From: Clostridia bacterium
GTDB taxonomy: Bacteria > Bacillota > Clostridia > UBA1381 > UBA9506
Direction: 5' to 3'
Assembly (NCBI GenBank): GCA_017416855.1
Contig: JAFQAZ010000014.1
Coordinates: forward strand, 1-34,265
Length of the DNA: 34,265 nucleotides
A program made the translations under genes and the position numbers. A model generated the notes under the pieces. It did not search any database, was not told the DNA's origin, and worked only from the letters and a program-made list of their open reading frames with translations. Shown here in pieces: positions 4,748 to 26,607 of this stretch; position 1 is the stretch's first letter, and every line of letters begins with the position of its first letter.

Positions 4748-4760
4748 GGAGGAACCGAGA

Positions 4761-7403: not shown

Positions 7404-7417
7404 GAGGGAAGTTACAT

Positions 7418-11335: not shown

Positions 11336-11367
11336 TATTCATTAATATATTTAAAGAGGTGTTTAAA

Positions 11368-13929
11368 ATGAAAAAACTGTTCAGTTTAGTCCTCAGCTTA
11401 TGTATTTTAGCCGGTTGTCTTTGTCTGCCTATAAGTGCATTTGCTGCGGCTCCCGCGCTCTCTTCTTTAGAGATTAGTGTAGACGGGGTAACCTATGAGT
11501 CTGTGGAAGACTTTAACGCCGAAACATTGACTTATTATTACAAATGCAGAGGCGAAGTGCTTCCTACTGTTCGTGCAACGGCGGCTTCCAAGGATGCAAC
11601 CGTAACTGTGCACCAGGCAGGAAAGTATTATCGCACAGCTGAAATTATTGTTTCTGAAGGCGGTCAGGATACGACTTATGAAGTTGTTTTTCTGCAAAAT
11701 CTTTCCCATTTAGATGGCGTAACGGCAACGGCAAACCTTGGGTATCAATCCAACCCTGCCTCCATGGCGATTGATGGGGTATACACAGCAGCAAGCTCCT
11801 GGCTTTACAGTACCACTGCTACCGAAAAAGGTGTTTTCAATCTGGATTTAGGCGCTGTTTATGATGTGTATGACATTTCTATTGTTTACAATTATAATGT
11901 GGGCAACGATGCAGAAAATCATGATATTATTTATAGCTCCACCACCGGAACAGAGGATGCAGATTATGGTGACCCTATTGGTGTGACCTCTACAGATAAG
12001 GGAGAATTTAATGAAGTGGCAGATGCCAAAAATGTTGACTGGTTCGACCTTACCCTTGATAAAGCCATTCCTTTTAAGGCGCGTTACTTTAAGCTTACAG
12101 GTAGCGCAGAAAAAGGTGCTATCGGTTATTCCGAGGTGGAAGTCTGGGGTTTAGGGGAGCAATATCCCACAGCCTTAGATGATATTAAAATCAGTGAAGA
12201 TGGTGGTGCAACCTACACTTCTTTTGCTGATTATAATCCGGCTACAAACACCTATTATTATAAGTGCGGCAGAACTGCTGATGATTCCGGTAACATTCTG
12301 CCCTTGGTGCAGGCTATTGCCGCCGATGGCACAACCGCCACCGTTCTGCAGGCGTCTGAAGGTATTCGCAATGCTAAAATTACCGTGAGCAACGGCACCG
12401 AAACCTCTACCTATACCATTTATTTTTTGATAAACCTATCCTTGGAAACAGATGTAACTGCAGCTGCGACCACTACAGGCTGGAACGCTAACAGACCCAT
12501 CACAACCATAGACGGTGACTTAACGACCTATTGGTCTTATGCCTCGAATTCAACGAAAGATAGTATCTGGGTTGATTTGGGTGCCTCCTATCAGGTTTAT
12601 GAAATATCAGCTTTAATTTTTACAGCCCATGCCACAGGCGGTTCTACGAATGTGGATGAACTTGCCATTAAGAATACAGCCGCAACGGCTGCAACGGATG
12701 CTGATTGGACCAAACCGACAGCCACCTTTGCTCAGAATACGACGAATCCACCCAGTGGTGATAGATTAGAAGAATATAACCATACCTTATCCGCCCTCAC
12801 GACCCTTCGCAGCGTTAAGATAAGCGGTTCTGCTACAACCGGAGCCAGAGGTATTTATGAGCTGCAAATATGGGGTCTGCCGGCACAGGCAGCCGACAAC
12901 GATGCCAGCCTGAGTAACATCAGCCTCTCAACCAATGGCCGTACCTATGAGAATATTGCTGATTTTGATAGTGAAAAAGACACCTATATCCATTATTGTC
13001 AGGATTTCAGCACCTTTGAAAACGGCGGAAACTATCCGCTTACCTCCAACATTCCCAGCGTTAAGGCAGCAGCTTCCCATCGCGATGCGAGGGTAGCAAT
13101 CACCCAGGCAACTGCCGGTGATGCCACGGCCACCATCGTGGTAACAGCGCCCGATGGTGTGACCCAAAAGACCTATAAGGTTCTTATGGTATCGGATGTG
13201 GCTTCTACCAGCACCGTAACAACGGGAGGTTCCTATTCTGACCATAGAGCACAACCGGTAATTGATAGAAATATTACAACCTATTGGCAAGCTGGTTCGG
13301 CAGCAGGCGGATATTTACTAACTATCGATTTTGGCGCAGCTAAGACCATAACCGGTTTTGACTTCTATGTGCATAAAAATTCTCAATCAACAACTCATTG
13401 GGATGTGGTTACTATGGATACAGACACATCGACAGATGTACCAGTAACTTTGAGCACCATATCTTCAACTGCAGTTGGTAGCAAGTATAAAGTGTCAGGC
13501 CGTTTTGAAACACCGGTAACAGCAACCAAACTGAAATTTAAAGGTTCTACCACAACCAGTGTTGGACGTTTTCTCTATGAAGCTGTCGTTTGGGGCAATA
13601 GCTCAAGAAATGCAATATATCAGGATGCAGAGCATAATTTTAATGCTACCTTGAACTGGGCTTCTGCAAAGAGCGAGACAGGTACTCTTTATTGGGGCTG
13701 GTACGATGGACAGGGCAACTTGTTAAAAATCGGCAAAATTGCAAACCCCGTAGCTGTAGCGCCCGGTACCGGCCAGACAACTGGAAACACTTCAACTAAT
13801 GCAGCGGCAACCGGCACAAATGTTACTGCAAGCTTAGGCAAGGCTCCTGCAAATGCGGAAACAATTCGTTTCTTCTTCTGGAACGGTGACATTCAGCCTG
13901 TAGAAACAACTTTATGGATTGGCCTTTAA
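11368..13929 (+). CDS. Secreted protein with three cadherin-like/F5-8-type-C pairs, 853 aa
   Basis: I start at ATG 11368, preceded by AAAGAGGTG at a good distance; a GTG nine bases upstream overlaps that ribosome site. The N-terminus is a signal sequence that contains LAGC (residues 14-17), a perfect lipobox, but the hydrophobic stretch continues to AFA-A, so lipoprotein or ordinary secretion are both possible. The body is three repeats of a cadherin-like sandwich followed by a discoidin domain; the sandwiches begin near residues 30, 270 and 508. Each discoidin begins with an ID(G/R)..TTYW-like motif and ends in a (V/L).VWG-like strand. A C-terminal sandwich from about 752 ends in IRFFFWNGDIQPVETT, a pattern seen at the ends of other clostridial surface proteins. 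Unlike its three neighbours it has no SLH repeats. It is probably a sugar-binding component of the same system and the last gene of the surface operon. Confidence 0.85.
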   Translation: MKKLFSLVLSLCILAGCLCLPISAFAAAPALSSLEISVDGVTYESVEDFNAETLTYYYKCRGEVLPTVRATAASKDATVTVHQAGKYYRTAEIIVSEGGQDTTYEVVFLQNLSHLDGVTATANLGYQSNPASMAIDGVYTAASSWLYSTTATEKGVFNLDLGAVYDVYDISIVYNYNVGNDAENHDIIYSSTTGTEDADYGDPIGVTSTDKGEFNEVADAKNVDWFDLTLDKAIPFKARYFKLTGSAEKGAIGYSEVEVWGLGEQYPTALDDIKISEDGGATYTSFADYNPATNTYYYKCGRTADDSGNILPLVQAIAADGTTATVLQASEGIRNAKITVSNGTETSTYTIYFLINLSLETDVTAAATTTGWNANRPITTIDGDLTTYWSYASNSTKDSIWVDLGASYQVYEISALIFTAHATGGSTNVDELAIKNTAATAATDADWTKPTATFAQNTTNPPSGDRLEEYNHTLSALTTLRSVKISGSATTGARGIYELQIWGLPAQAADNDASLSNISLSTNGRTYENIADFDSEKDTYIHYCQDFSTFENGGNYPLTSNIPSVKAAASHRDARVAITQATAGDATATIVVTAPDGVTQKTYKVLMVSDVASTSTVTTGGSYSDHRAQPVIDRNITTYWQAGSAAGGYLLTIDFGAAKTITGFDFYVHKNSQSTTHWDVVTMDTDTSTDVPVTLSTISSTAVGSKYKVSGRFETPVTATKLKFKGSTTTSVGRFLYEAVVWGNSSRNAIYQDAEHNFNATLNWASAKSETGTLYWGWYDGQGNLLKIGKIANPVAVAPGTGQTTGNTSTNAAATGTNVTASLGKAPANAETIRFFFWNGDIQPVETTLWIGL

Positions 13930-13959: not shown

Positions 13960-14024
13960 AGTCAAAATTATCCAATAAAAGGCTAATGCTGTACATTGCT
14001 TCTACGAAAGCTTTAGGCTACAAT
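13960..14024 (+). promoter_or_regulatory. Regulon promoter copy A (operator + sigma-A-type promoter)
   Basis: The operator block AGTCAAAATTATCC (13960-13973) is followed by AATAAAAGG and by AATG...CATT just upstream of the -35. The -35 TTGCTT (13996-14001) and -10 TACAAT (14019-14024) are 17 bp apart. The same block-to-(-35) distance of 36 bp is found in the copies at 18033 and 22008. It drives the GH28-like/GH88 genes. Confidence 0.8.
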
Positions 14025-14039
14025 TAGAGTAGATACGAT

Positions 14040-14212
14040 GTTTTGGGGAGGTTTTTTTCCTCCCCAAAACTATATCTATCCACCGGAGCAGGGGTTTGTT
14101 CCTTTTAGATAAAAGAAGTAAACCCGTTCCCCGGAAGCCTCACTTCGGTGCGGCAGACCCCTTAGTTTTTTTAAGGTAGCTTTTATCCGGCCCAAGAAAA
14201 AGCTATCCTTTA
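14040..14212 (+). promoter_or_regulatory. Structured 5' leader of the GH28-like gene (four hairpins)
   Basis: Transcription from promoter A should start near 14031. The leader then folds into: a perfect 12-bp hairpin with a seven-T loop (14040-14051/14059-14070); a long bulged hairpin (14085-14089/14126-14130, 14092-14097/14120-14125, and inner CTTTT-AGAT-AAAAG at 14102-14115); a UUCG tetraloop hairpin (14137-14154) followed by T7; and AAGGTAGCTTTT/AAAAGCTATCCTT (14173-14212). I do not recognise a known riboswitch, T-box or ribozyme. It could be an attenuator, an mRNA stabiliser, or a readthrough terminator of the upstream surface operon. This also accounts for the 319-base gap between genes. 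Confidence 0.55.
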
Positions 14213-14248
14213 CATAAAATAATTTTACTGGGCAGAAAGGTGATTGTC

Positions 14249-15670
14249 ATGTGTATAGACAAATTTAACCCAAATTATTATGTGGATTTAGCCGACGACA
14301 GTGCAATGATTCAAGCCGCTGTTGATGAAGCTGCCAAAACCGGCGATGCAGTAACCATTCCCAGAAACAATGCCAGAACCGGCAAAAATGTCTGGGACAT
14401 CAGCCGTGCCATCATGCTTTATACCGGTAGTGTGATTTATTTAGATAACTGTCATCTGCGTCAGGCAGATGATGTAATTACCAATATTTTTCGTAACTCC
14501 AACAACGAAACGGAATTAGGTTGTACCAGAGAGGGCCGTCAGAGCAACATCACCATTATTGGTATGGGCAACTGCCTGTTAGATGGCGGCGTTAAAAATG
14601 GTTTAACTGAAGTTAACTGTGCAGAATATGGTGTAAAAAGTGCTTGCGAAAACAGTATGTTTAACTTTATGAATGTGGAGAAGGTTAACATACGCAACAT
14701 TCGCATCACCCATCATAGATATTGGGCATTTGTATTCCATTATTCTTCTCATGTACAGATTTCCGGCATTGATTTCTATGGTCCCTATCATTGGCGTAAC
14801 CAAGACGGCATTAACTTAAGAACCGGTTGCTCCCACTTCTTTATTGAGAACCTGACCGGTGCTTTAGGTGATGATGTTGTGGCTATGACCAATCTTAACA
14901 ACTACCGTGATGAGTTAATGGCCGGCTGTGGCTATGATGACTCCATTCATAATGTAGTCATTCGCAACATTCGTGCTACGACCCGTGCTTCTTTTGTTCG
15001 CATTTTAAACCACCATGGCAAGAAAATTTATAATGTTTTAATTCAAGACTTAATGTTCGATGCTGAAGCTGACCCCACAGATCCAAGAATGGCCGGCTAT
15101 GATCCGATTCATCCCGAAGTTTACAAGTTCCGTCAGCATTACTGTGTGCGTATTGGTCAATGCCATTACTTTGGCAAGGGCTCCATGGCTCAGCTTGGCG
15201 ATACCTATAATATCACCGTTCGTAATGTAACCTGCCGTGGCCTTGCTGCTGTAAACATTGGCTGTGCTGTATCTGATGTTTTGGTGGACAATGTTCGCCT
15301 TTATGGTGAAGCCAACACCGTTGCCTACTTTGTGCAGGGTGTGGCCAGAAACATTATGATCCGTGATGTATATTATTCTGAGCATTGCCGTCCCAATCCG
15401 AACAATCCTGAAGACGATAACCGTAAGATTGAGGTTGAGTATGAAGGCTGTGAAAAGGACTGCGAAATTATGCCTGAAAAGCAGGTTTGTATGGCCTATT
15501 TTAAAAACACCGATGCTGATGATGTTACCTTCCGTGATGTTCATGTGGGCAAGGGTGTTACCGCTGTGTTTGGTGGTTATGGTAAGGTTCGTGTTCGCAC
15601 CTCGAATATTCGTTATCCCGAAGGCACACCTTTAACTGTGGGTCAGGGTATTGAGGTTATTGAAGAATAA
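14249..15670 (+). CDS. Cytoplasmic GH28-like right-handed beta-helix protein, 473 aa
   Basis: The start is ATG 14249 after AGAAAGGTG; an in-frame GTG at 14240 overlaps that ribosome site. There is no signal peptide, so it acts in the cytoplasm. Repeated short strands (NVVIRNI, ISGIDFYG, VLVDNVRLYG) mark a parallel beta-helix. NQDGINLRTG (from residue 184) and GDDVV (207-211) match the NTD and DD motifs of GH28 polygalacturonase-type hydrolases. The usual GHG and RIK motifs are not evident; at that place there is ASFVRILNHHG, with an RI and a displaced His. So it keeps the Asp residues of the family but departs around the catalytic His and substrate-binding Lys. It may hydrolyse imported oligosaccharides of unusual linkage, or do something else on the beta-helix scaffold. 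It is followed by GH88, as in uronate-polymer loci. Confidence 0.75.
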   Translation: MCIDKFNPNYYVDLADDSAMIQAAVDEAAKTGDAVTIPRNNARTGKNVWDISRAIMLYTGSVIYLDNCHLRQADDVITNIFRNSNNETELGCTREGRQSNITIIGMGNCLLDGGVKNGLTEVNCAEYGVKSACENSMFNFMNVEKVNIRNIRITHHRYWAFVFHYSSHVQISGIDFYGPYHWRNQDGINLRTGCSHFFIENLTGALGDDVVAMTNLNNYRDELMAGCGYDDSIHNVVIRNIRATTRASFVRILNHHGKKIYNVLIQDLMFDAEADPTDPRMAGYDPIHPEVYKFRQHYCVRIGQCHYFGKGSMAQLGDTYNITVRNVTCRGLAAVNIGCAVSDVLVDNVRLYGEANTVAYFVQGVARNIMIRDVYYSEHCRPNPNNPEDDNRKIEVEYEGCEKDCEIMPEKQVCMAYFKNTDADDVTFRDVHVGKGVTAVFGGYGKVRVRTSNIRYPEGTPLTVGQGIEVIEE

Positions 15671-15768
15671 AATATAAGGGATGTAAAAAAAGGTCCTGAA
15701 CGCAAAAAGGCAAACAACTACTGATAAAACCATTGGTATAAAGTAATATGTTTGCGATAAAATTGTTG

Positions 15769-15793
15769 AAAAATCTCATTTTTTGAGATTTTT
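15769..15793 (+). terminator. Hairpin, probable terminator or leader element
   Basis: AAAAATCTCA (15769-15778) pairs perfectly with TGAGATTTTT (15784-15793) around a T5 loop. The stem ends in A5/T5, so it could work in either direction. It lies about 100 bases after the GH28-like stop. Confidence 0.55.
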
Positions 15794-15819
15794 CTCAAAA
15801 TTAAACCTTTTTGCTACAA

Positions 15820-15870
15820 ACAAACCTCACCTCTCGCCGTACCCACGTACGCCTTCGGGATTCGGTTTGT
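15820..15870 (+). promoter_or_regulatory. Possible structured leader upstream of GH88
   Basis: ACAAACC (15820-15826) pairs with GGTTTGT (15864-15870). Inside this closing stem lie CGTAC/GTACG (15838-15842/15847-15851) and a CC-TTC-GG mini-hairpin. The 259-base gap between the GH28-like and GH88 genes holds only this and the hairpin at 15769. I see no copy of the regulon promoter here. Confidence 0.35.
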
Positions 15871-15929
15871 CCATTCAGGAACCTTTTTTCCTATCCCCTA
15901 TAGAGCGAAAAAGAAAGGATTTTAAAGTT

Positions 15930-17093
15930 ATGTTCGATTTTAAACAAGCAATAGCACAAGATAAGGCTTTTGCCGATAGCGTTTGGGAAAAGCTGGATAA
16001 AAAGCTTCAGGTTATGGCAGTTCGTTCACGTGAAAAATTGCCCTATACCACCGAAAACGGTGAGCATATTAACTCTTATCTTCGTGGCATTTGCAGCTGG
16101 ACAAACGGCTTTTGGCCGGGTATGATGTGGCTTTTATATTATGGTACAAAAAACGAGACCTACCGTACCACTGCTGAGCGAAGTGAAGAACTTTTGGATG
16201 AGGGTTTAAAGGAATATGAAGGCTTGCATCACGATGTGGGCTTTATGTGGCAGCTTTCTGCCGTTGCCGATTACAAAATTACCGGCAACAAGGCCTCTCG
16301 CATTCGTGCATTGCACGCAGCTAACCTGTTAATGGCTCGCTATAACATTCGCGGTGGTTTTATCCGTGCCTGGAATGACTGGGATGAAAAATGTGAGCAA
16401 AGAGGCTGGACCATTATAGACTGTATGATGAATCTTTCTCTTTTATATTGGGCCAGTGAAGAAGTTAATGACCCCCGGTATAAATATGTGGCTATGGCAC
16501 ATGCAGATAAGGCAATGGAGCATCATATTCGTCCTGATGGTTCTGTTCGTCACATCGTTTCCTTTAATCCGGAAAATGGTGAATTTATTGAAGCTTTGGG
16601 CGGTCAGGGTTATGATGCAAACTCCTCTTGGTCTCGTGGACAGGCGTGGGCTCTTTATGGCTATGCCATCAGCTATATGAAAACCGGAAAAACAGCCTAT
16701 TTAGATACGGCTAAGCGTGTGGCTCATTACTTTATTTCTTGTGTTTCCAACGATTATATGCCTCGTTCTGATTTCCGCGCACCGAAGGAGCCGGTGATTT
16801 ACGATAGCAGTGCCGGTGCCATTGCAGCCTGTGGATTATTAGAGTTGGCACGTTTGGTTCCTGCTAATGAAGGCGCGTTTTATTATGATGCTGCAGTTAA
16901 ACTCTTAAAGGTTATAGATGAAAACTGGTGTAATTATACCTTAGAGGAGGATTCTATTCTGCAAATGTGCACCAGTAGCTGGACACAAGAAGGTCTTGCT
17001 CATCGCTGGGCTCATAAGCCTCTTATTTTTGGTGAGTATTATTTTGTAGAAGCCATCTACAAATTAAAGGGCTTTGATTTGTTGTTTGAATAA
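15930..17093 (+). CDS. Unsaturated glucuronyl hydrolase, GH88 family, 387 aa
   Basis: It removes the 4-deoxy-4,5-unsaturated uronic acid left at the non-reducing end by polysaccharide lyases, by hydrating the vinyl ether; the product opens to a 5-keto-4-deoxyuronate. The alpha6/alpha6-barrel family signatures are clear: WTNGFWPGMMW near 54, LHHDVGFMW with Asp102, and IIDCMMNLSLLYWAS with Asp164. These two Asp residues correspond to the catalytic pair of characterised GH88 enzymes. AYRWG-like closing motifs (LAHRWAHKPLIFGEYYFVEA) end the protein. The start is ATG 15930 after GAAAGGA; the frame remains open upstream to 15783, but that extension begins with TTG inside a hairpin and has no family match. 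Length is typical and there is no signal peptide. The SLH-anchored lyase upstream is the natural supplier of its substrate. Confidence 0.93.
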   Translation: MFDFKQAIAQDKAFADSVWEKLDKKLQVMAVRSREKLPYTTENGEHINSYLRGICSWTNGFWPGMMWLLYYGTKNETYRTTAERSEELLDEGLKEYEGLHHDVGFMWQLSAVADYKITGNKASRIRALHAANLLMARYNIRGGFIRAWNDWDEKCEQRGWTIIDCMMNLSLLYWASEEVNDPRYKYVAMAHADKAMEHHIRPDGSVRHIVSFNPENGEFIEALGGQGYDANSSWSRGQAWALYGYAISYMKTGKTAYLDTAKRVAHYFISCVSNDYMPRSDFRAPKEPVIYDSSAGAIAACGLLELARLVPANEGAFYYDAAVKLLKVIDENWCNYTLEEDSILQMCTSSWTQEGLAHRWAHKPLIFGEYYFVEAIYKLKGFDLLFE

Positions 17094-17145
17094 CGGCCCT
17101 ATATATGAAATGTAGAGAATAGGCAAAGTATAGGAGAAACAGCTG

Positions 17146-18015
17146 ATGTTTAAATTAGGAATAATTACCGATGAGGTTTCACAAGATTTTGAAGAGGCAT
17201 TGCAATTTGCCCAAAAAAATAAGTTAGACTGTGTGGAACTTCGTTCTGCCTGGGAAAAAAATCCCTTTCAATATGATGAGGAGGATTTTCAAAGAATTGC
17301 GGGCTTATTAAAGCAATATGAAATGCCCTTGCTTTGCATTTCTTCTCCTTTATTTAAATGTGATTTTTATAATCCCGAAGAAAGAAAAGAGCATTTGGAG
17401 GGTTTAAAGCGACTACTGGCTCATAAAGATCTTTTGGGCTTTACCATGATTCGTTGTTTTGACTTTTATCTTAAGGAAGGGATGCCCGTTAGCCATGAAC
17501 AGATAAAAGAAGCTTTTGCTGAGCCCATTGCTCTCTGTAAGGCTGCCGGTGTAACCCTAGTGTTAGAGTGTGAGCCTTCCACTCATTCGGGCAACTGTGA
17601 AACCACCGCAGCAACCATTCGTGCCGTTGGCTCTGAAACCCTGCGTGGCGTTTATGAACCGGGCAATGTGCTTTTTAGCGGGACTGATGAAGTACCATTT
17701 CCCCAAGGTTATGAACGGATGAAGGACGTTTTTGCCCATGTGCATATTAAAGATGCTAAAGAGATTGACGGCAAAATGCAAGGGGTTTGTGTGGGAACCG
17801 GTTTGGTGGATTATCCCGGCATAATTCAGGAGTTTATTGACTCCGGCTATGAAGGCGCTTTGATTTTTGAACCACATTATAAACCCAATGGTATTGTGAT
17901 TAGCGAAGAAGTGTTTAGAAATCCACAAGGTAGCGCTATTTCCGCCTTTGGTGATATTGCAAGCCAGGAGTGTATTGATTCTCTGCGTGATATTATCGCT
18001 AAAGTGACGAAATAA
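17146..18015 (+). CDS. Sugar-phosphate isomerase/epimerase family (xylose-isomerase-like TIM barrel), 289 aa
   Basis: The protein opens with MFKLGIITDEVSQDFEEAL, as in AP-endonuclease-2/xylose-isomerase-like TIM barrels. Probable metal ligands are Glu141 in LVLECEPS, a His in the VYEPGNVLF region's neighbourhood, His200 in HVHIKDAK and Glu in ALIFEPHY near the C-terminus. This order is typical of the family, which includes sugar and keto-inositol isomerases, epimerases and dehydratases. The substrate cannot be read from the sequence. It is 52 nt after GH88 with ribosome site AGGAG and no promoter between, so it probably acts on the sugar GH88 releases. It could act as a KduI-like isomerase for the unsaturated uronate product, since no KduI homologue is present. 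That is an inference. Confidence 0.8.
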   Translation: MFKLGIITDEVSQDFEEALQFAQKNKLDCVELRSAWEKNPFQYDEEDFQRIAGLLKQYEMPLLCISSPLFKCDFYNPEERKEHLEGLKRLLAHKDLLGFTMIRCFDFYLKEGMPVSHEQIKEAFAEPIALCKAAGVTLVLECEPSTHSGNCETTAATIRAVGSETLRGVYEPGNVLFSGTDEVPFPQGYERMKDVFAHVHIKDAKEIDGKMQGVCVGTGLVDYPGIIQEFIDSGYEGALIFEPHYKPNGIVISEEVFRNPQGSAISAFGDIASQECIDSLRDIIAKVTK

Positions 18016-18032
18016 AAAACTGACAATTAAAA

Positions 18033-18097
18033 AGTCAATATTGTCCGTATAAAAGCCAATGCAATGCATTGCTTTTTGCTTGATTCTAAGATACAAT
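18033..18097 (+). promoter_or_regulatory. Regulon promoter copy B
   Basis: AGTCAATATTGTCC (18033-18046), GTATAAAAG, then a perfect inverted repeat AATGC-AAT-GCATT (18058-18070) runs into the -35 TTGCTT (18069-18074). The -10 TACAAT (18092-18097) is 17 bp away. This is the clearest of the three copies. The predicted start near 18104 forces the next gene to begin at ATG 18147. Confidence 0.82.
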
Positions 18098-18146
18098 AAA
18101 AGTGTTCATGCTTTTGAATTTTTTATGTGTTTTTAGGAGGATAAAT

Positions 18147-19028
18147 ATGATAAAAGTAGCAATTTTAGGAATTGATAATAGCCATGCCTGGGCTTTTGCA
18201 GGGGCTCTTGCCAATAAGGATGGTTCTAAATTGTTTGAAGATGTAGAACTTATTGGCATGTATGGGGATTATGATACCGAGGATGGAAAAATTGCCATGG
18301 CTGAAATTGCCAAGTGCAGCAGCTGTAGCAATTATGCAGCGCATTATAATGACTTTTTAGATGAGGCTGATGCCATTCTGGTTACCGCTCGCCATGGTAA
18401 ATATCATTTAGAATATGCCAGAGAGTATATTAAAAAGGGCATTCCTGTTTGGATCGATAAGCCCTTTACCTGTTCTCCGGAAACGCTTTGTGAAATGCTG
18501 GATTTGGCTAAAGAGTGTGGTTGTACCATTACGGGAGGTTCGGACCTGCCTCATTTGCCCATAATAAAAGAGGCTATTGCAGAAACAAATGCCTTTTCTA
18601 AAATTTTAGGCGGTCATGTAACGGCACCCATTCATATGAATAGCCCTTATGGCGATTTTTGGTTCTATGCTCAGCATCTGGTGCAAATGATAACCTCTGT
18701 TTTTGGCACTGAGGTAAGAAGCGTGCGTGCATTTCGGGAAAATGATGGTGTAACAGCTCTTTATTCCTTTGATGATTTTACTGTAACAGCCCGATTTGGC
18801 AGTGGTTACACCCTTTTAGTCTATGGTGAAGATAACAAAATTGTTCAAAAAGAAATTATTTCCTCTGCGGAGCACTTCGTAATAGCTTTACACGTTTTTT
18901 ATGATGTGATTAAAAGCGGTAAATCCGATATGACTTATCGGGAAATGGCGGCTCCTGTTTACATTATTGATGCAACCATAAAGGCTTATACAGATGGCAA
19001 GGAAGTTTCAATCACCCTGCCTTATTGA
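18147..19028 (+). CDS. Gfo/Idh/MocA-like oxidoreductase with atypical nucleotide-binding motifs, 293 aa
   Basis: I start at ATG 18147, seven bases after AGGAGG; the frame open from 18102 would begin upstream of the predicted transcription start of promoter B. The N-terminus MIKVAILGIDNSHAWAFAG has a Rossmann strand-turn, but with GIDNSH in place of the usual GxGxxG. The family EKP motif is DKP at residues 104-106 (WIDKPFTCS). The C-terminal half is the alpha/beta substrate domain, and the whole is shorter than the usual 330-380 residues. The family reduces or oxidises sugar hydroxyl/keto groups with NAD(P). It is a one-gene unit: own promoter and a strong terminator at 19042. It could be the reductase step after the isomerase, or have lost normal cofactor use. 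The substrate is unknown. Confidence 0.75.
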   Translation: MIKVAILGIDNSHAWAFAGALANKDGSKLFEDVELIGMYGDYDTEDGKIAMAEIAKCSSCSNYAAHYNDFLDEADAILVTARHGKYHLEYAREYIKKGIPVWIDKPFTCSPETLCEMLDLAKECGCTITGGSDLPHLPIIKEAIAETNAFSKILGGHVTAPIHMNSPYGDFWFYAQHLVQMITSVFGTEVRSVRAFRENDGVTALYSFDDFTVTARFGSGYTLLVYGEDNKIVQKEIISSAEHFVIALHVFYDVIKSGKSDMTYREMAAPVYIIDATIKAYTDGKEVSITLPY

Positions 19029-19041
19029 GGATGTGAAGCAT

Positions 19042-19090
19042 AAGCCACTTGCTATGGCGAAAAGGCTTATAGCAAGTGGCTTTTTCTTTT
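19042..19090 (+). terminator. Rho-independent terminator
   Basis: A perfect 14-bp stem (19042-19055/19069-19082, AAGCCACTTGCTAT and its complement) is followed by TTTTTCTTTT. It closes the isomerase/oxidoreductase transcription units. Confidence 0.9.
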
Positions 19091-19101
19091 GTACTAACAA
19101 A

Positions 19102-19123
19102 AACTATGGCTATGCTCATAGTT
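19102..19123 (+). promoter_or_regulatory. Inverted repeat upstream of nagB-like gene, possible operator
   Basis: AACTATG and CATAGTT flank an 8-base spacer. It lies between the terminator and the nagB-like gene, where a promoter is expected, but I could not find convincing -35/-10 boxes and the regulon block is absent. Confidence 0.35.
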
Positions 19124-19215
19124 CCCTTTGAGTAAACTATTTATCCTGACGAAATGTACGGAAGACGACCACAAGATATCAATTATTTTGTTTTCAAAAG
19201 AAAGGATTTGATACG

Positions 19216-19983
19216 ATGATTAAAAAAATTAAAATAGATGCCTTAGGTGTGCAGGTTTTTGCCACTCGTGATGAAATGGGAAAGGCCGCTGCCGATGATG
19301 TGGCCGCTTGTATTAAAGAGCTACTTTCTGAAAAAGAGGAAATTAATATGATTTTTGCAGCGGCTCCTTCTCAAAACGATGTTTTATATCATCTTTGCGA
19401 GAAAGAAGATATTCCATGGGAAAGAATTAATGCTTTTCATATGGATGAATACATTGGTTTGCCCCAAAATGCGCCTCAAGGCTTTGCTAATTTTCTATTA
19501 GATAAAATTTTCTCCAAAAAACCTTTTCGGTCTGTGAACTTAATTGATTCCACAGCTATTGAGCCGGAAACAGAGAGTGCGCGCTATGGTGCCCTTTTGG
19601 ATGCTTATCCTACCGATATTGTCGTTTTGGGCATTGGGGAAAATGGACACATAGCCTTTAACGATCCCCATGTGGCCGATTTTAATGATAAGCTTGTGGT
19701 AAAGCCTGTGCAGTTAGATGAGGTTTGTCGCCAGCAACAGGTGAATGACGGCTGTTTTGAGAAGCTTTCGCAGGTGCCGAAATTTGCATTGACACTCACT
19801 ATTCCCACTTTGTTTCGTGCTCAACATTTGTTTTGTGTTGTGCCTTGCCAAACTAAGGCAAAGGCGGTTAAGGCGACTGTTGAAGGTCCCATTAGCGTGG
19901 ACTGTCCGGCATCAATTATGAGAAAGCATCCCTCTGTCACTCTTTATTGCGATGCTGAGAGCGCATCTCTTTTGGAGGACTGA
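19216..19983 (+). CDS. nagB: Glucosamine-6-phosphate deaminase-like protein, 255 aa
   Basis: NagB converts glucosamine 6-phosphate to fructose 6-phosphate and ammonia in the cytoplasm. FHMDEYIGL (around residue 75) matches the FnmDEYvgl motif, and GIGENGHIAFNDP (139-151) matches GvGnDGHIAFNEP. Against the E. coli enzyme the Asp of that motif is Asn143, a change I recall in Gram-positive NagB proteins, and the Glu is Asp150. ALTLTIPTLFRA and ATVEGPIS are the later family blocks. Length is slightly short of the usual 240-266 range's upper end and complete. The gene is followed after 2 nt by nagA, with the latter's ribosome site inside the nagB end. The pairing makes N-acetylglucosamine-6-phosphate (or a close relative) the likely pathway input. 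GAAAGGA precedes the ATG. Confidence 0.85.
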   Translation: MIKKIKIDALGVQVFATRDEMGKAAADDVAACIKELLSEKEEINMIFAAAPSQNDVLYHLCEKEDIPWERINAFHMDEYIGLPQNAPQGFANFLLDKIFSKKPFRSVNLIDSTAIEPETESARYGALLDAYPTDIVVLGIGENGHIAFNDPHVADFNDKLVVKPVQLDEVCRQQQVNDGCFEKLSQVPKFALTLTIPTLFRAQHLFCVVPCQTKAKAVKATVEGPISVDCPASIMRKHPSVTLYCDAESASLLED

Positions 19984-19985
19984 TT

Positions 19986-21155
19986 ATGACCACAAGAATA
20001 AAAAACGGAAAATATATTTTGCCTGATGGAATTTATGAGGACTTATATCTCTATTTTACCGATGATACTATTACGGCTATTACCAAAGATGAACTTACCT
20101 ATGAGGAAGAAATTGACGCGAAGGGGTATTATGTTTCCCCCGGTTTTATTGACATGCACGTACATGGTGGCGGCGGCCGGAGCTTTGCAGCAGGTGATAA
20201 AGAATCCATTATTAAAGCAGCCAACTTCCATGCCTCTCATGGTACTACTTCTATTTTAGCTACCTCTTCGGCTTGTTCACCCAAACGGTTGGTAGATTTT
20301 TTAAGAGCTTTACATGAAGTGATGGAAGAAAAGAGTGCCCCCAGCGTGATTGGTGCTCATTTAGAGGGTTCTTATTTTTCACTGGCCCAAAGCGGTGCTC
20401 AGAATCCGGAATTCATTAAAGCACCGGACCCGAAAGAATATGAAATGTTTTATGAAGAGGGTAAGGGGCACATTATGGTATGGTCCTTTGCACCAGAGCT
20501 TCCTGGTGGCGAAGCATTTGTTAAGTTTTTAATGGAGAAGGGCATTATTCCATCTATCGGTCATTCCAATGCCACTTATGCCGATGTGAAAAAGGTCTAT
20601 GACTTAGGTTGTCGAGCCTTTACTCATTTATATTCCGGTATGTCTACCATTACAAGGGATAATGGCTTTCGTCGTTTGGGTGTTATTGAATCGGCCTATC
20701 TTTTAGATGATGTTCATGCAGAAATCATTGCCGATGGCTGCCATCTGCCACCAGAACTTTTACAGCTGATTGTAAAACGTTTGGGTGTGGATAATCTTTG
20801 TCTCATTACTGATGCTCTTCAGGTGGCCGGTATGGAGCATATGGAACAATCCCTTACCAGAGAGGTAGAAAGTCTGGCCTTCATCGTAGAGGATGGAGTA
20901 GCCAAATTGCCGGATAGAAGTGCCTTTGCCGGGAGTATTGCTACGACCAATCGGTTAGTGAAAACCATGATTGATAAAGCTGGTGTTTCTTTGGAGGAAA
21001 GCATTCAGATGATGACTGCAAATCCGGCCAGATTTCTGCATCTTACAAAGAAAGGCAGACTGGATCCCGGACTGGATGCCGATATTGTTATCTTTGATGA
21101 TGAAATTGACATTAAGCGGGTGATTATTGGTGGCAACACTTTTACAGTAGCCTGA
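19986..21155 (+). CDS. nagA: N-acetylglucosamine-6-phosphate deacetylase, 389 aa
   Basis: This amidohydrolase removes the acetyl group from N-acetylglucosamine 6-phosphate, feeding NagB. Family motifs are in place: GFIDMHVHGGGG with His58/His60, HLEGSYFS with His125 and metal ligand Glu127, GHSNAT, THLYSGMS (usually THLFNAM), and LITDALQVAG with catalytic Asp276. The C-terminal NPARFLHL and GRLDPGLDADIVI are typical. Length equals the family norm of about 380-395. Ribosome site GGAGG sits within the nagB end. The altered THLYSGMS and HLEGSYFS positions might reflect a related substrate rather than GlcNAc-6-P itself; this is only a hint. Confidence 0.92.
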   Translation: MTTRIKNGKYILPDGIYEDLYLYFTDDTITAITKDELTYEEEIDAKGYYVSPGFIDMHVHGGGGRSFAAGDKESIIKAANFHASHGTTSILATSSACSPKRLVDFLRALHEVMEEKSAPSVIGAHLEGSYFSLAQSGAQNPEFIKAPDPKEYEMFYEEGKGHIMVWSFAPELPGGEAFVKFLMEKGIIPSIGHSNATYADVKKVYDLGCRAFTHLYSGMSTITRDNGFRRLGVIESAYLLDDVHAEIIADGCHLPPELLQLIVKRLGVDNLCLITDALQVAGMEHMEQSLTREVESLAFIVEDGVAKLPDRSAFAGSIATTNRLVKTMIDKAGVSLEESIQMMTANPARFLHLTKKGRLDPGLDADIVIFDDEIDIKRVIIGGNTFTVA

Positions 21156-21184
21156 TTTATGGTTTTTTGAGAGGAGGAAAGGAT

Positions 21185-22027
21185 TTGCCTTTACAAAATC
21201 AAGAAAAGATGATATTTGAGAAGGAAGATTTTCCTATTCGGGTTTCCTTCCTTCCCTCTGTCAACAGCACCAACAGTCTTTGGCACGAGGACATTGAACT
21301 GAAATGTGTTCTTTCCGGTCAGGTTCAAATGATGATCGATACAGAAATTATAACGGCTGGTGCGGGAGACATTATTTTTATTAATCCGCATCAGATTCAC
21401 TCTAATGTGACTTTGGGGGAGGAAGGGAGCTATCAACTCATTATACTGGGGCTGGACTTGTTTGCTCCTACTGATACTTTAGATTTGCGAAGACTCTTTT
21501 TGGAGGAAGGAATGCAGATCAAAAATCTGGTGCAAAATTCAATGGCTTTTTCCATAGCGGAGCGCTTGATAAATGAATATGAAAGCCATCAGCCCTACAG
21601 CCAACTGGCTATGGAAGGACTTGCAAAAGAGCTTTTTGCAGTGTTACTGCGTCAGGAACAGGACAAAGGAGCCTTGCGTGGGAGTCTGAAGGGACATATT
21701 AAGTTTTATAAAACCATTGAACCGGCGGTGGTTAAGCTTCGGGAGTGTTATGATGAAAGCTTTTCCGGTGATGAATTAGCTGGCTTTTGTAAGTTGAATC
21801 GCCATTATTTTTGTCGTATATTTAAACAGGCGATGGGAGTCACTCCAATACAATACCAGAATGCTTGCCGATTAAAGATGGCCGATATTTTCATGAAGGA
21901 TATGAAACTGAGTATTTCTGAAATCGCTCATCGTGTAGGCTTTGAGGATGAAGCTTATTTTAGTCGCGCCTATAAAAAATACCGTGGGATATCTCCTAAA
22001 CAAGCGAAGTCAACATTGTCCAAATAA
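21185..22027 (+). CDS. AraC-family transcriptional regulator with cupin sensor, 280 aa
   Basis: I choose TTG 21185, seven bases after AGGAGG (21172-21177); an upstream TTG at 21167 overlaps that site, and ATG 21209 is the alternative. Residues about 20-100 are an AraC-type cupin (WHEDIELKCVLSGQVQMMI, AGAGDIIFINPHQIHSN). The C-terminal 100 residues are two helix-turn-helices: DELAGFCKLNRHYFCRIFKQ, then ISEIAHRVGFEDEAYFSRAY followed by GISPKQ. It is cotranscribed with nagBA (29 nt gap). One copy of the conserved regulon operator (22008) overlaps its last codons, so it is the prime candidate to bind all three copies, probably as an activator because the operator sits directly upstream of poor -35 boxes. 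The ligand may be a degradation intermediate. Confidence 0.9.
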   Translation: MPLQNQEKMIFEKEDFPIRVSFLPSVNSTNSLWHEDIELKCVLSGQVQMMIDTEIITAGAGDIIFINPHQIHSNVTLGEEGSYQLIILGLDLFAPTDTLDLRRLFLEEGMQIKNLVQNSMAFSIAERLINEYESHQPYSQLAMEGLAKELFAVLLRQEQDKGALRGSLKGHIKFYKTIEPAVVKLRECYDESFSGDELAGFCKLNRHYFCRIFKQAMGVTPIQYQNACRLKMADIFMKDMKLSISEIAHRVGFEDEAYFSRAYKKYRGISPKQAKSTLSK

Positions 22028-22072
22028 AAGCTAATACAATGCATGGACTTTTATTTTTTTCTAAGATAAAAT
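22008..22072 (+). promoter_or_regulatory. Regulon promoter copy C
   Basis: AGTCAACATTGTCC (22008-22021), then AAATAAAAGC and AATACAATGCAT. The -35 position holds TGGACT (22044-22049), a poor match, and the -10 is TAAAAT (22067-22072), again 17 bp apart. The operator block overlaps the end of the araC coding sequence. It drives the oxidoreductase-aminotransferase-amidohydrolase operon. Confidence 0.78.
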
Positions 22073-22111: not shown

Positions 22112-23110
22112 ATGAAAGCATTGATTATTGGTGGTGGCGCTATTGCTGAACAACACTGTCAGGCGTTAACCAAGCTGGGCGTGGAGGTTTATGCCATTTG
22201 TGATTTAAACATAAAAGCAGCTCAGACGCTGGCAGAACAATATCGGGCTAAAGCATTTGGCGATGTTAGCCTTGCTTTAGCAGAACAGGTTGATTTTGTG
22301 TCCGTTTGTACCCCTAGCGGCACACATCCGGCTCTGGCTATTCAAGCAATGGAGGCAGGTAAGCATGTGGTTGTAGAAAAACCATTAGCTTTATGTGTTG
22401 AAGATTGTAAGTCTGTGATAGAAACAGAAAAGAAAACCGGAAAAATTTGTGCCCCTATTTCTCAGCTGCGTTTTTCTGAAACCTATAAAAGCGTTAAGCG
22501 CATTATAGAGGCTGGCGAGCTTGGCACCTTAGTTACCGGTTCTTTATCTATGCACTATTATCGAGCGCCGGAGTATTATGCGGGTAGCTGGAAGGGCACC
22601 AAAGCATTAGATGGTGGCGAGTTGTTTAACCAGGGAATTCACGGTTTGGATGTTATGTGCGGTCTTTTGGGAAAACCTACCCAAGTATCCGGATCAGTTG
22701 TTACCCGGCTTCATCAGATTGAAACAGAGGATACGGCTGTTGCTTCTATGATATATCCCGGTGGTATGATGGGTACATTAGAGAGTTCTACTGCTGTGTT
22801 TTATTCCACACCAAGACGGATGGAAATCTGCGGTACCAAGGGTAGCATTACGATGATTGAGGATACGATTTCTGTAGCTGAGGGAGTTTCCTTAGAACTA
22901 AGCCCCCAAAAGAAGTTTATTACCAATGATCCGAAATTAGAAAGCAGCGAAGAACATGAACGTATTTATAAAAACATTCTGGCTGCCTTTCTTGGAAAAG
23001 AAAAGCTTCAGTATACAACAAAAGATGCAGCAAATACTGTGCATCTTATTTGTGCCATCTATGAATCATCAGAAACGAAACAAGTCATTACTTTGAAGGA
23101 GGAATTATAA
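22112..23110 (+). CDS. Gfo/Idh/MocA-family NAD(P)-dependent oxidoreductase, 332 aa
   Basis: The N-terminal Rossmann motif is GGGAIAEQH (residues 7-15), and EKP (89-91, VVEKPLALCVEDC) holds the catalytic-site Lys90. The C-terminal sheet domain carries GGELFNQGIHGLDVMCGLLG with the usual H...D arrangement. Length is typical. It should oxidise or reduce a sugar or sugar-derivative carbon. Its stop overlaps the start of the DegT-type aminotransferase by one base (TAATG), a sign of translational coupling. In known pathways such pairs (WbpB/WbpE, NtdC/NtdA) interconvert a 3-hydroxy, 3-keto and 3-amino sugar. Here the catabolic setting suggests the reverse direction; that is an inference. Start ATG 22112 follows AGGAG. 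Confidence 0.9.
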   Translation: MKALIIGGGAIAEQHCQALTKLGVEVYAICDLNIKAAQTLAEQYRAKAFGDVSLALAEQVDFVSVCTPSGTHPALAIQAMEAGKHVVVEKPLALCVEDCKSVIETEKKTGKICAPISQLRFSETYKSVKRIIEAGELGTLVTGSLSMHYYRAPEYYAGSWKGTKALDGGELFNQGIHGLDVMCGLLGKPTQVSGSVVTRLHQIETEDTAVASMIYPGGMMGTLESSTAVFYSTPRRMEICGTKGSITMIEDTISVAEGVSLELSPQKKFITNDPKLESSEEHERIYKNILAAFLGKEKLQYTTKDAANTVHLICAIYESSETKQVITLKEEL

Positions 23111-24444
23111 TGGTAAAGGAAAAACTAGCATTACTTGGAGGAACCCCTATCATTGACAAAGAGCCTCCAAAGGAATTATTTAAGTGGCCCATCATCACAA
23201 AAGAGGATGAAGAAGCAGCTTTAGAGGTTATTCGTTCCGGAAACTTTTCCGGTACAGATATTTCAATGCAATTTGAAAAGGAATTTGCACAATGGATCGG
23301 CACAAAACACGCTTTGGTATTCTGCAACGGAACCCAGGCTCTTGCCGCTGCGATGTTTGCCGTCGGTCTGGGTGCAGGAGATGAAATCATTTGCACCACC
23401 AAAACCTATTGGGCCAGCATTACGCCGTCTCTGATTTTTGGTGCAACCCCTGTATTTTGTAATGTTGATGAAAATCTGAGTATGGATCCGGATGATATTG
23501 AACGTTGCATTACCCCAAAGACAAAGGCTTTAATGGTGGTTCATTATTGTGCATATCCCTGCGATATGGATAGAATTATGGCTATTGCAAAAAAACACAA
23601 CTTAATTGTAATTGAAGATGTTTCTCATGCACAAGGTGGCTACTATAAGGGTAAGAGACTGGGTACCTTTGGTCATGTAGCAGCTATGTCTTTAATGAGT
23701 GAAAAATCCTTTGCGATTGGTGAAGGTGGTATGTTCGTTACGAATGAAACTTATATGTATGAACGAGCAGTTGCTTATGGCCACTATGAACGTAATAATG
23801 AAAAGTTTTTATCTGAAAATGAGGACATCAAAAAATTTTATGGCTTGCCTCTGGGTGGCGTTAAGGCAAGATTAAATCAGGTTTCTGCAGCCATTGGTCG
23901 TGTGCAGCTTAAGTATTATGATGAACGCTGTGCAGAAATTGATGAGGCAATGAATTATTTCTGGGATATATTAGAAGAAATTCCCGGTATTCGTGCCATC
24001 CGTACAGAAAAGGGCAGCGGATCTACTATGGCTGGTTGGTATGCTTGTAAGGGAGTATATGATGCTGAAGCCTTTGGCGGTCTTCCAATAAAGAAGTTCT
24101 GTGAAGCTGTGCGTGCGGAAATGAGTAATACGGCCGGTGTTTATGCCGGTGCAAACTACTGTCTGCACACCCATAAGCTGTTCACGGAACTGGATTTCAG
24201 AAATGCAGGCAAGCCTTCTTCCATCGAATATTTGGAAACTTCCTCCTACCATGGTGCTGAAAACTGCGACGAATCTATTATTGATAACAGTTTTTCGGTG
24301 CCGATGTTTAAACGCAATTATAGAGAATGGTTGGAAAAATATGCTCAGTGCTTTAAGAAAGTTGCAGAAAACTATGAGCAGCTTTTAGGTGAAGTGTCTG
24401 TGCAAGACACTCAAGGTGGCCGTTGGTTTGGTTCTGTAGACTAA
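23110..24444 (+). CDS. DegT/DnrJ/EryC1/StrS-family PLP aminotransferase, 444 aa
   Basis: Fold-type I aminotransferase of the sugar-aminating class. VIRSGNFSGTD and FCNGTQALAAAMFAVGLG form the cofactor pocket entrance. IEDVSHAQGG holds Asp170, which contacts the pyridine nitrogen. SEKSFAIGEGGMFVT holds the Schiff-base Lys199. GGVKARLNQVSAAIGRVQL is the typical later block. It is longer than most members (370-400 residues) through a C-terminal extension (about 370-444). The family transfers an amino group to or from a keto sugar or keto-inositol. The one-base overlap with the upstream dehydrogenase points to a channelled two-step conversion. Substrate unknown. Confidence 0.9.
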   Translation: MVKEKLALLGGTPIIDKEPPKELFKWPIITKEDEEAALEVIRSGNFSGTDISMQFEKEFAQWIGTKHALVFCNGTQALAAAMFAVGLGAGDEIICTTKTYWASITPSLIFGATPVFCNVDENLSMDPDDIERCITPKTKALMVVHYCAYPCDMDRIMAIAKKHNLIVIEDVSHAQGGYYKGKRLGTFGHVAAMSLMSEKSFAIGEGGMFVTNETYMYERAVAYGHYERNNEKFLSENEDIKKFYGLPLGGVKARLNQVSAAIGRVQLKYYDERCAEIDEAMNYFWDILEEIPGIRAIRTEKGSGSTMAGWYACKGVYDAEAFGGLPIKKFCEAVRAEMSNTAGVYAGANYCLHTHKLFTELDFRNAGKPSSIEYLETSSYHGAENCDESIIDNSFSVPMFKRNYREWLEKYAQCFKKVAENYEQLLGEVSVQDTQGGRWFGSVD

Positions 24445-24481
24445 ATCGGGCTTGAAATAATATCAAACAGGAGATAAGAGA

Positions 24482-25366
24482 ATGATTAAAATTGATGCAC
24501 ATAATCATCCGGACTTTCTCGGGATGGGAATTCAAAAATTTATTGCCAATATGGATGAAAACGGCATTGATAAAACCGTTTTGTTAACTGACGAAAAACC
24601 TTGGGAAGAAATATATATGAATGAACTTGGTGTAAATCCCAGTCCTTTGGCTGCCAGTGAGGAGCATTGTATTCCTTTTAATCGTTGCTTGGATTTTTAT
24701 GAAAAAGCACCTGAACGTTTCATTTTAGGCTATTGCCCGGATCCACGTCGGCCACAGGCAGTACATAAAATGAAATCAGCTATCCATACCTACGGCGTTA
24801 AGGTTTGCGGTGAGGTTAAGTTCAGAACTATGTATGATAATCCTGACTGTATTGACCTGTTTCGTTACTGCGGTGAACAGGGGGTGCCGGCAATTTTGCA
24901 CTTTGATGTGGCAGAAGCCCAGATTGCACCTAAAGGCTCCTATTGGAGACATTATTGGTATGGCGGTGATATTAACACCTTAGAACGACTGTTAGAACTT
25001 TGCCCTGAAACTAATTTTCTGGGTCATGCTCCTGGTTTCTGGGCTTGCATTTCGAATGACGATTTGTGGAAAACGGTAGACTATCCCCAAGGACCTGTAA
25101 TCCCCGGTGGTCATATTGAACGGTTGCTGGAAAAATTCCCAAACCTTTATTGTGATTGTTCTGCTTATTCTGCTTTGGCGGCACTTTCACGCGACTCTGA
25201 ATATACCAAGAAACTGATTATGACCTTTCCGGATAGATTTGTATATGCCCGTGATAATTTTGAAATTCAGTTGGCACCATTTATTGATTCCTTAGGCCTT
25301 TCGCAGGATGTCTTGGAAATGTTTTATCACAAAAATATTGAGCGTTTAATCGGGGAAGGCAAATAA
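24482..25366 (+). CDS. Amidohydrolase family 2 (metal-dependent TIM-barrel hydrolase), 294 aa
   Basis: The protein begins MIKIDAHNHPD, with the HxH metal motif at His7/His9. CGEVKFRTMY and PAILHFDVAEAQ are further strand ends, FLGHAPGFWA supplies another His, and YARDNFEIQLAPF the C-terminal Asp region. This pattern fits PF04909 amidohydrolase-2 enzymes, which include sugar lactonases, decarboxylases and hydratases. It is last in the operon, 37 nt after the aminotransferase, with ribosome site CAGGAGA. A lactonase for a lactone formed by one of the two Gfo/Idh enzymes is a reasonable guess; the sequence does not prove it. Confidence 0.8.
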   Translation: MIKIDAHNHPDFLGMGIQKFIANMDENGIDKTVLLTDEKPWEEIYMNELGVNPSPLAASEEHCIPFNRCLDFYEKAPERFILGYCPDPRRPQAVHKMKSAIHTYGVKVCGEVKFRTMYDNPDCIDLFRYCGEQGVPAILHFDVAEAQIAPKGSYWRHYWYGGDINTLERLLELCPETNFLGHAPGFWACISNDDLWKTVDYPQGPVIPGGHIERLLEKFPNLYCDCSAYSALAALSRDSEYTKKLIMTFPDRFVYARDNFEIQLAPFIDSLGLSQDVLEMFYHKNIERLIGEGK

Positions 25367-25369
25367 GAC

Positions 25370-25660
25370 TCCAATCAAATTGGACATTAGAGCTCCAATG
25401 CACACTATTGGCACCACCATTATGCTGTTGGCAAGCTTTTGTTTCAGCTTAAAAGAGACTTTTCAGGCACTTGTGCTGGGTCTTTCATTATTTTTCAATA
25501 TATCAACCGACGACGATATTTGGGTGCAAATACTATGTGATACTTGCAATTCCAACGTGTGTGTGATAAACTTTCTGTATCAAGTTTCATTACTTGATTC
25601 CTCCTTTGATTAATTTCGGCGGTTGGCTAGACCTGCCTCGATAATATCAAAGGAGGATAT
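25370..25660 (-). mobile_element. Internally deleted IS200/IS605-type element (remnant)
   Basis: On the - strand this stretch begins with the typical IS200 left-end structure: ATCCTCCTTTGAT-like arms (25646-25657 against 25599-25610) enclosing the motif GTCTAGCCAACCGCCGAAAT, with the ribosome site buried in the stem. The first 31 codons of the transposase follow, then a jump to unrelated sequence and a terminal hairpin TCCAAT-CAA-ATTGGA (25370-25375/25379-25384), which may be the right end. The boundaries are approximate. Together with the terminators beside it, this explains the 397-base gap before the tRNA. Confidence 0.7.
25495..25590 (-). pseudogene. tnpA: IS200-family transposase TnpA, N-terminal fragment
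   Basis: From ATG at 25590 the - strand reads MKLDTESLSHTRWNCKYHIV, then FAPKYRRRLIY and a stop. This is the conserved start of IS200 Y1 transposases (usually ...KWNCKYHIVFAPKYRR..IYG). The stop is a TGA at the expected Gly codon; a few more residues (WKIMKD) still resemble the family before the match ends. The HUH motif and catalytic Tyr are absent, so it cannot be active. Confidence 0.88.
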
Positions 25661-25863: not shown

Positions 25864-26607
25864 TCAGTTAACAGATTGCTCATATAATTTACGCAGGTGG
25901 GCAAGAACTCTCTTTTCCAGACGGGAAATGTTCATCTGAGAGGTGTGCAAAATCTGCGCAATTTCGGTTTGGGTCATTTCTTCGTAAAAACGAAGCCGGA
26001 TAAACTCCTGCTCGCGTTCAGGCAAGGAACGGATACCGCTTTCTACAAAATCCTTGTTTTCAATCATTAAATATTCATTATCTTCAGCACCAATGCAGTC
26101 AGATAACATGGCATCGTGATCGTCAATGGAATAATCTAGTGAATGAATTTCTTTAATATCTCCCCAATGGAGAGCCTGGGTTACTTGATTAACAGGAATA
26201 TCCATAGCTTGAGCCAGTTCTTCGGTACTGGGCATTTTTCCGTTCTTTATCAGTTCCTCATTACGGATTTTACTGGCTTTTACAAAGGTTTCATATAAAC
26301 GACGGGGAATACGGATGCAATTTCCCTTGTCGCGGAATAAACGCTTGATTTCCCCTAGAATTGTCGGGGTGGCATAAGTTGCAAAACGAACACCTCGGGA
26401 GGGGTCGTAGCGTTTAATGGCATTCATTAAACCGATGGAAGCAGATTGATAAATATCATCAAACTCAATTCCGCGTCCGGTAAAACGTTTCGACAGGATT
26501 TCGGTTATATAACTGTAAGTTGCCATAATGTCAGCCAAAAGAGAAGTATCACCACTGGATTGATAACGTGTAAACAAGTCTTGCTCTTCAGAAAGTGCTA
26601 TTGACAT
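25864..26607 (-). CDS. RNA polymerase sigma factor, SigB/SigF/SigG subfamily, 247 aa
   Basis: Group-3 sigma-70 factor. Region 2 is clear: GIEFDDIYQSASIGLMNAIK and then FATYATPTILGEIKRLFRD, the core-binding and -10 recognition part. Region 3 (EELAQAMDIPVNQVTQAL) and region 4 (EREQEFIRLRFYEEMTQTEI, AQILHTSQMNISRLEKRVL) follow. Length matches SigF/SigG/SigB. It is not beside spoIIAA/spoIIAB, rsbV/rsbW or spoIIG genes, so the usual anti-sigma partners are absent locally. The upstream gene (50 nt away) encodes a one-span membrane protein and probably shares its promoter. A sporulation or stress role cannot be decided from the sequence. Confidence 0.92.
   Translation of the reverse strand: MSIALSEEQDLFTRYQSSGDTSLLADIMATYSYITEILSKRFTGRGIEFDDIYQSASIGLMNAIKRYDPSRGVRFATYATPTILGEIKRLFRDKGNCIRIPRRLYETFVKASKIRNEELIKNGKMPSTEELAQAMDIPVNQVTQALHWGDIKEIHSLDYSIDDHDAMLSDCIGAEDNEYLMIENKDFVESGIRSLPEREQEFIRLRFYEEMTQTEIAQILHTSQMNISRLEKRVLAHLRKLYEQSVN

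Follow-up and report, generated by a model that had tools for sequence, protein, structure and literature searches.

The question raised by this locus is whether a short block of DNA that stands before three promoters in a cluster of sugar-polymer-degradation genes is the operator of a regulator encoded among them. The stretch analysed, hereafter the window, is the 34,265 nucleotides of contig JAFQAZ010000014.1 from the Clostridia bacterium assembly GCA_017416855.1. An earlier note on this DNA had read the block, together with an ATAAAAG tract, an AATG...CATT element and a promoter, as the mark of a glycan regulon, and had named the AraC-family protein encoded in mid-locus as the candidate binder. 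On the sequence it is very probable that each copy is a complete AraC class II operator-promoter, through which the local AraC-family protein would activate three transcription units.

The block, AGTCAANATTRTCC, lies exactly where it had been claimed, at 13960, 18033 and 22008, always on the plus strand, and these are the sole three exact matches in the 2,368,526 bases (2.37 Mb) of the assembly. Over 66 bp, copies 1 and 2 have 42 identical letters, copies 1 and 3 have 40, and copies 2 and 3 have 53, as against a mean of 17.4-17.8 (standard deviation 3.6-3.7) and a best value of 35 among all unrelated stretches of the window. The 50-bp flanks match far less than this core (14-18 letters pairwise upstream; 15, 12 and 22 downstream). 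The copies therefore did not arise by the recent duplication of some longer segment, in line with the earlier argument, from their differing surroundings, against simple gene duplication. Taken alone and allowed three mismatches, the 14-mer block occurs in the window no more often than expected (20 observed, 20.4 expected), and with two mismatches it shows little excess in the assembly (134 matches versus 115 for a reversed control); the strength of the evidence sits in the longer similarity of about 66 bp and not in the loose 14-mer. As had also been noticed, one copy overlaps the end of araC: copy 3 covers the last codons and the stop of that gene (21167-22027; ...TLSK, stop). The idea that the copies belong to a known RNA family was set aside, since at gathering score Rfam matches the window only at a tRNA.

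When the three copies were slid against themselves, and likewise a set of five sites made up of these copies and the araC-degT gaps of two other genomes (G228 and G017, discussed below), a single offset stood out, that of 21 bp. Over the five sites it gives 43 of 85 possible matches, where other offsets between 9 and 44 reach at most 31, and it was equalled in 0 of 20,000 shuffles; permuting the alignment columns, which are then shuffled together with their conservation kept, yielded a direct repeat this good (best of 13 offsets) in 6 of 1,000 cases. The operator consists of two 17-bp half-sites placed head-to-tail at 21-bp spacing, the form of a class II operator, with a distal half-site of the AGTCAAnATTGTCC type and a proximal one of the GCYAAT...TGCAT type, and at this spacing both half-sites look to the same side of the helix. 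The two elements that had been described separately are thus parts of one operator, the block being its distal half and AATG...CATT a part of its proximal half. Operator 1 comprises 13960-13976 and 13981-13997, operator 2 comprises 18033-18049 and 18054-18070, and operator 3 comprises 22008-22024 and 22029-22045, all on the plus strand; the exact block falls in the distal half-site each time, and operator 1 is in phase with copies 2 and 3 and with the sites of the two other genomes. AATG...CATT is indeed conserved, but as a dyad it does no better than chance, equally good dyads arising in 291 of 1,000 column permutations, and it was rejected as a palindromic operator. The ATAAAAG tract did not hold up as a common element: in copy 1 it stands 1 bp off its place in the others, although the proximal half-site there is unshifted, and so we regard it as spacer.

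The predicted promoters follow at 13996-14024, 18069-18097 and 22044-22072 on the plus strand. The first two have TTGCTT as -35 and TACAAT as -10 box, the third TGGACT and TAAAAT, and the spacer is 17 bp in all three, as the note had it. From the start of the block to the start of the -35 box is 36 bp at 3 of 3 copies, again in accord with the note, and the -35 boxes are as weak as it had described them, with 3, 3 and 4 of the 6 consensus letters; a consensus scan lists only the third promoter. By position, the proximal half-site overlaps the predicted -35 box by 2 bp, as at a class II promoter.

This geometry is close to that of the araBAD promoter of Escherichia coli (NC_000913), on which the copies can be superposed without gaps to within 1-2 bp, the half-sites lying at index 0 and 21 in both. 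The -10 box is at index 58 in E. coli and at 59 in the window. The araBAD half-sites are known as I1-I2, and its -35 box lies at about index 34, compared with 36 here. The AraC consensus, TAGC-N7-TCCATA, has an internal spacing equal to that of the half-sites in the window. Unlike the araBAD promoter used for comparison, the operator here precedes three target promoters in one locus.

The product of 21167-22027 (plus strand), the proposed activator, is a member of the AraC/XylS family, with a C-terminal helix-turn-helix region (HTH_18, PF12833, 65.9 bits; HTH_AraC, PF00165, 66.5 bits in two stretches) and an N-terminal cupin sensor domain (AraC_binding, PF02311, 41.6 bits). Its orthologues are rare. 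Matches at E up to 1e-30 were found in 5 of 150 relatives, and a profile of three such AraC sequences matched 3 of 391 genomes of the class at 1e-60, the organism's own genome being counted in both cases. A search of named genomes gave weak matches only (6 loci), one of plasmids gave none, and the families of G228 (1 of 9 genomes, itself) and of G440 (1 of 16, itself) yielded no further orthologue. The genome searches scored a part of the first-look candidates of each genome (up to 16 in the search of relatives, 6 in the class-wide profile search and 4 in the one for DegT), so that orthologues may be missed, and G017, which holds both genes, is outside the matches of the class-wide AraC-profile and DegT searches, being either undrawn or missed.

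The operator was seen again in the two genomes in which an orthologous araC adjoins degT. G228 (AraC 44% identical) has the gene order araC-degT-amidohydrolase and G017 (36% identical) the order araC-degT-amidohydrolase-Gfo-Gfo, both without the Gfo/Idh gene that in the window separates araC from degT. Both genomes carry the operator between araC and degT, in phase with the window copies, none of 300 shuffles being as good in either case. With a profile built from the window copies only, the G228 gap is the best match of that genome (E 1.2e-4), where the best background matches of this profile in seven genomes have E of about 0.02 or above. In G228 the operator spans araC codons matching those under copy 3 (...ILSK, stop), so that two genomes have preserved an operator within the stop-codon region of the gene that encodes the regulator; the G017 site is intergenic, like copies 1 and 2 and like the proximal half-site at all five. 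The loci scanned with the five-site matrix had no other place above 18.0, compared with 44-53 for the same five sites on which the matrix was trained.

We also scored the 350 bp 5' of degT at 18 loci, of which one (L105) offered only 10 bases and was left unscored; two more DegT matches, in G210 and a second one in G104, lie outside this locus set. The operator was present at both loci with an adjacent araC orthologue (scores 24.7 and 19.6) and was found at none of the 15 scored loci without one, where best scores ranged from -11.3 to 2.5 and 32 to 299 of 300 shuffles were as good. Since the operator recurs beside orthologous araC and was not found at degT loci lacking it, the local AraC is the most likely activator, and the candidate proposed in the earlier note gains by this comparison.

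Several observations weigh against this assignment. The footprint comes from just two other genomes, and the G017 site has a genome-wide E of 0.92, under five unrelated places of that genome, so that its weight rests on its position. The likeness between copy 3 and G228 lies partly in araC coding sequence, which is itself constrained. In G440 (AraC 36% identical), the region before araC does not exceed what chance gives (250 of 2,000 shuffles as good), and counting this gene the operator is seen at 2 of 3 orthologue loci. The contrast with the 15 loci is softened in that degT there lies behind a same-strand gene in L095, L100, L103, L104 and others, and in that some contigs are short and an araC may be out of sight. 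Finally, E. coli AraC and the AraC of the window are only 20% identical. Resemblances to the block, with scores of at most 9.8, also occur close to less related AraC genes of G141, G104 and G103 (loci L087, L088 and L086), and these are leads only.

As to its extent, the earlier note expected a regulon reaching beyond the locus, for which it had suggested a genome scan. This expectation failed: the three-copy profile found no fourth site in the whole assembly, where contig ends may hide some, the next match having E 0.06, and a search for the two boxes together, allowing as many as 3 mismatches, returned the three copies and three 3-mismatch places, versus 2 in the reversed control. As regards sites elsewhere, the note itself had named such an outcome as refuting its reading. 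A dispersed, genome-wide regulon was accordingly rejected, and the AraC-family protein appears instead to be a local regulator with three promoters. The best other match to the five-site matrix in the window, at 13342-13384 on the minus strand (score 18.0), lies inside an F5/8 type C gene and is probably due to chance.

What was observed directly is the sites themselves and how they are phased, that the assembly has them at this locus only, and that they reappear beside orthologous araC in two genomes. As for the mechanism, from the sequence we infer binding and activation, an inducer, transcription starts and transcript boundaries as follows. A dimer of the AraC-family protein would occupy both half-sites, probably once a sugar that stems from the substrate of the locus is bound by its cupin domain, and the bound dimer would recruit RNA polymerase at the poor -35 box. 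The units switched on would be the GH28-like, GH88 and TIM-barrel genes, the gene of Gfo/Idh oxidoreductase A, and the Gfo/Idh B-DegT-amidohydrolase genes, while nagBA-araC would stand outside this control or have its own promoter. That nagBA-araC lacks the block, as had been stated, is confirmed by the lack of any match within 3 mismatches from 18355 to 22007.

The same protein might instead repress from the same sites, or both activate and repress. The overlap of the proximal half-site with the -35 box would fit occlusion, and the annotation of E. coli AraC is that of a dual regulator; on the other hand, the -35 boxes are weak, the -10 box comes after both half-sites as it does in araBAD, and tandem upstream AraC-family sites are taken as a sign of activation in a study of Caldicellulosiruptor (PMC8579813). 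We consider repression, alone or combined, quite unlikely.

It could also be that a different DNA-binding protein, for example a LacI-type repressor, reads the block or the AATG...CATT dyad, with AraC a bystander. Copy 2 has CAATG-N5-CATTG without a flaw, the five sites together keep 18 of 25 pairs, and a terminator scan also lists the dyad as a hairpin at 18057-18071; yet the dyad is matched by column permutation as often as described above, and the operator accompanies araC orthologues in the loci compared, so that we give this even less credence. Copies 2 and 3, which are the most alike of the three (53 of 66 letters), have 22 of 50 downstream letters in common and both precede Gfo/Idh genes, as would be expected if the copies were left over from a promoter segment that was duplicated or mobile, with no regulation in common. 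Against such an origin, the upstream flanks are near background, the genome has no further copies and the phase is kept in two other genomes, and we hold it to be the least probable of these explanations. Activation by the local AraC-family protein is the reading that we retain.

The first of the three units to which this activation would apply contains a GH28-like gene (14240-15670; PF00295 22.3 bits, a little short of the 22.9 cut-off), a gene like those of GH88-family unsaturated uronyl hydrolases (15930-17093; PF07470 45.3 bits), for which we take the ATG at 15930 where the mechanical open reading frame (ORF) runs from 15783, and a xylose-isomerase-like TIM-barrel gene (17146-18015; PF01261 91.1 bits). 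Unit 2 is the gene for the Gfo/Idh/MocA oxidoreductase A (18147-19028; PF01408 37.3 bits; mechanical ORF from 18102), and unit 3 (22112-25366) encodes Gfo/Idh B (22112-23110), a DegT aminotransferase (23110-24444) and an Amidohydro_2 protein (24482-25366). Between unit 2 and nagBA-araC lies a terminator-like hairpin with a T-rich stretch (19042-19082), which the simple terminator scan did not list and which folds at -27.1 kcal/mol for 19030-19085 (z -5.9); the nagB-like and nagA genes (19216-21155) have no operator upstream. All of these are on the plus strand.

A repeat element at 15671-15930 stands between the first two genes of unit 1 and makes it uncertain that the unit is a single transcript. 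It has 22-nt terminal inverted repeats (15673-15694/15881-15902, 82%), and the genome contains 14 more matches to it, full or partial, with 74-89% identity, which together form a MITE-like family. Right where transcript 1 is expected to begin, 14030-14078 holds a perfect 12-bp hairpin (GTTTTGGGGAGG/CCTCCCCAAAAC) with an outer stem (-25.9 kcal/mol for 14030-14090, z -5.8), with no T run after it; it is possibly a 5' stabilising stem, and the leader, 14028-14240, is single-copy in the genome. Beyond unit 3, the minus strand carries a short remnant of an IS200-type transposase at 25370-25611 (HTRWNCKYHIVFAPKYRRR in one frame; Y1_Tnp E 2.5e-4, under the curated cut-off, for a peptide typed by eye) and a SigB/SigF/SigG-family sigma factor gene at 25864-26607 (TIGR02980, 209.5 bits, below the 234.35 cut-off), which is adjoined by a 223-aa ORF (26658-27329) with no Pfam or NCBIfam match.

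Given that the earlier note had glycosaminoglycans in mind, we asked what the genes say of the substrate. Upstream of copy 1, the genes at 2-13929 encode a series of large proteins, of which three have S-layer homology (SLH) domains and one of these three has heparinase II/III domains as well; the contig begins at the window start, so the promoter of these genes lies outside the window. Both the heparinase-like SLH protein and the GH88-family gene of unit 1 point to a uronic-acid polymer. The idea of a glycosaminoglycan as inducer is an unproven conjecture; the nag genes are without the site, and the regulator's partner in G228 and G017 is degT-amidohydrolase. The stretches of G228 (5.5 kb) and G017 (30 kb) had no match to the heparinase-like, GH28-like or GH88 proteins of the window, nor did the GH88 query match any of 26 loci at E up to 1e-5.

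Some arrangements elsewhere touch on this question. In G440 (L117, 5293-9905), the gene directly after that of the AraC relative (36%) encodes a protein of 1237 aa that has heparinase II/III C-terminal and F5/8 type C domains, an arrangement that suggests an association of this AraC subfamily with heparinase-type lyases; the protein had no match to the heparinase-like protein of the window (tblastn, 1e-5). Another locus of G440 (L095, 5471-14997) has two SLH surface proteins and then, on the same strand, degT, an amidohydrolase and three Gfo/Idh genes, an order that links SLH surface proteins to the degT-amidohydrolase-Gfo/Idh gene set. In G149 (L103, 4190-8268), a nagB-like gene (54%), degT and two Gfo/Idh homologues stand side by side. 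Tentatively, the operator set might mark an undescribed pathway, in which this AraC subfamily would control Gfo/Idh oxidation, DegT transamination and amidohydrolase steps. The substrates could conceivably be the products of the S-layer-anchored heparinase-like lyase and the GH88-type hydrolase, and the uronic-acid sugars might, on the same speculative footing, pass through keto and amino intermediates and not by the usual route.

AraC-family carbohydrate regulators with 21-bp direct repeats are known for rhamnose genes (PMC3870299); as described there, the regulators of Bacillales, Bacteroides and Enterococcus serve rhamnose pathways and act on target genes unlike those of the window. In PMC8579813, the AraC-family regulators of carbohydrate loci in Caldicellulosiruptor, read as activators, are likewise local and stand next to their targets, with tandem sites upstream of promoters; their loci have different substrates and targets, and several include ABC transporters, unlike the genes scanned here, among which no sugar transporter was recognised. 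A literature search found no paper combining at least 4 of DegT, Gfo, heparinase, S-layer and AraC. The proposed regulation follows a textbook plan and would be an ordinary case of local gene control, while the pathway that it controls may be the less known part. What the analysis provides is the assignment, within one sugar-polymer-degradation gene cluster, of a regulator, its predicted DNA site and three target units, and by tying a recurring, uncharacterised degT-amidohydrolase-Gfo/Idh set to a putative sugar-sensing activator it would offer a route to the inducer, and hence to the substrate.

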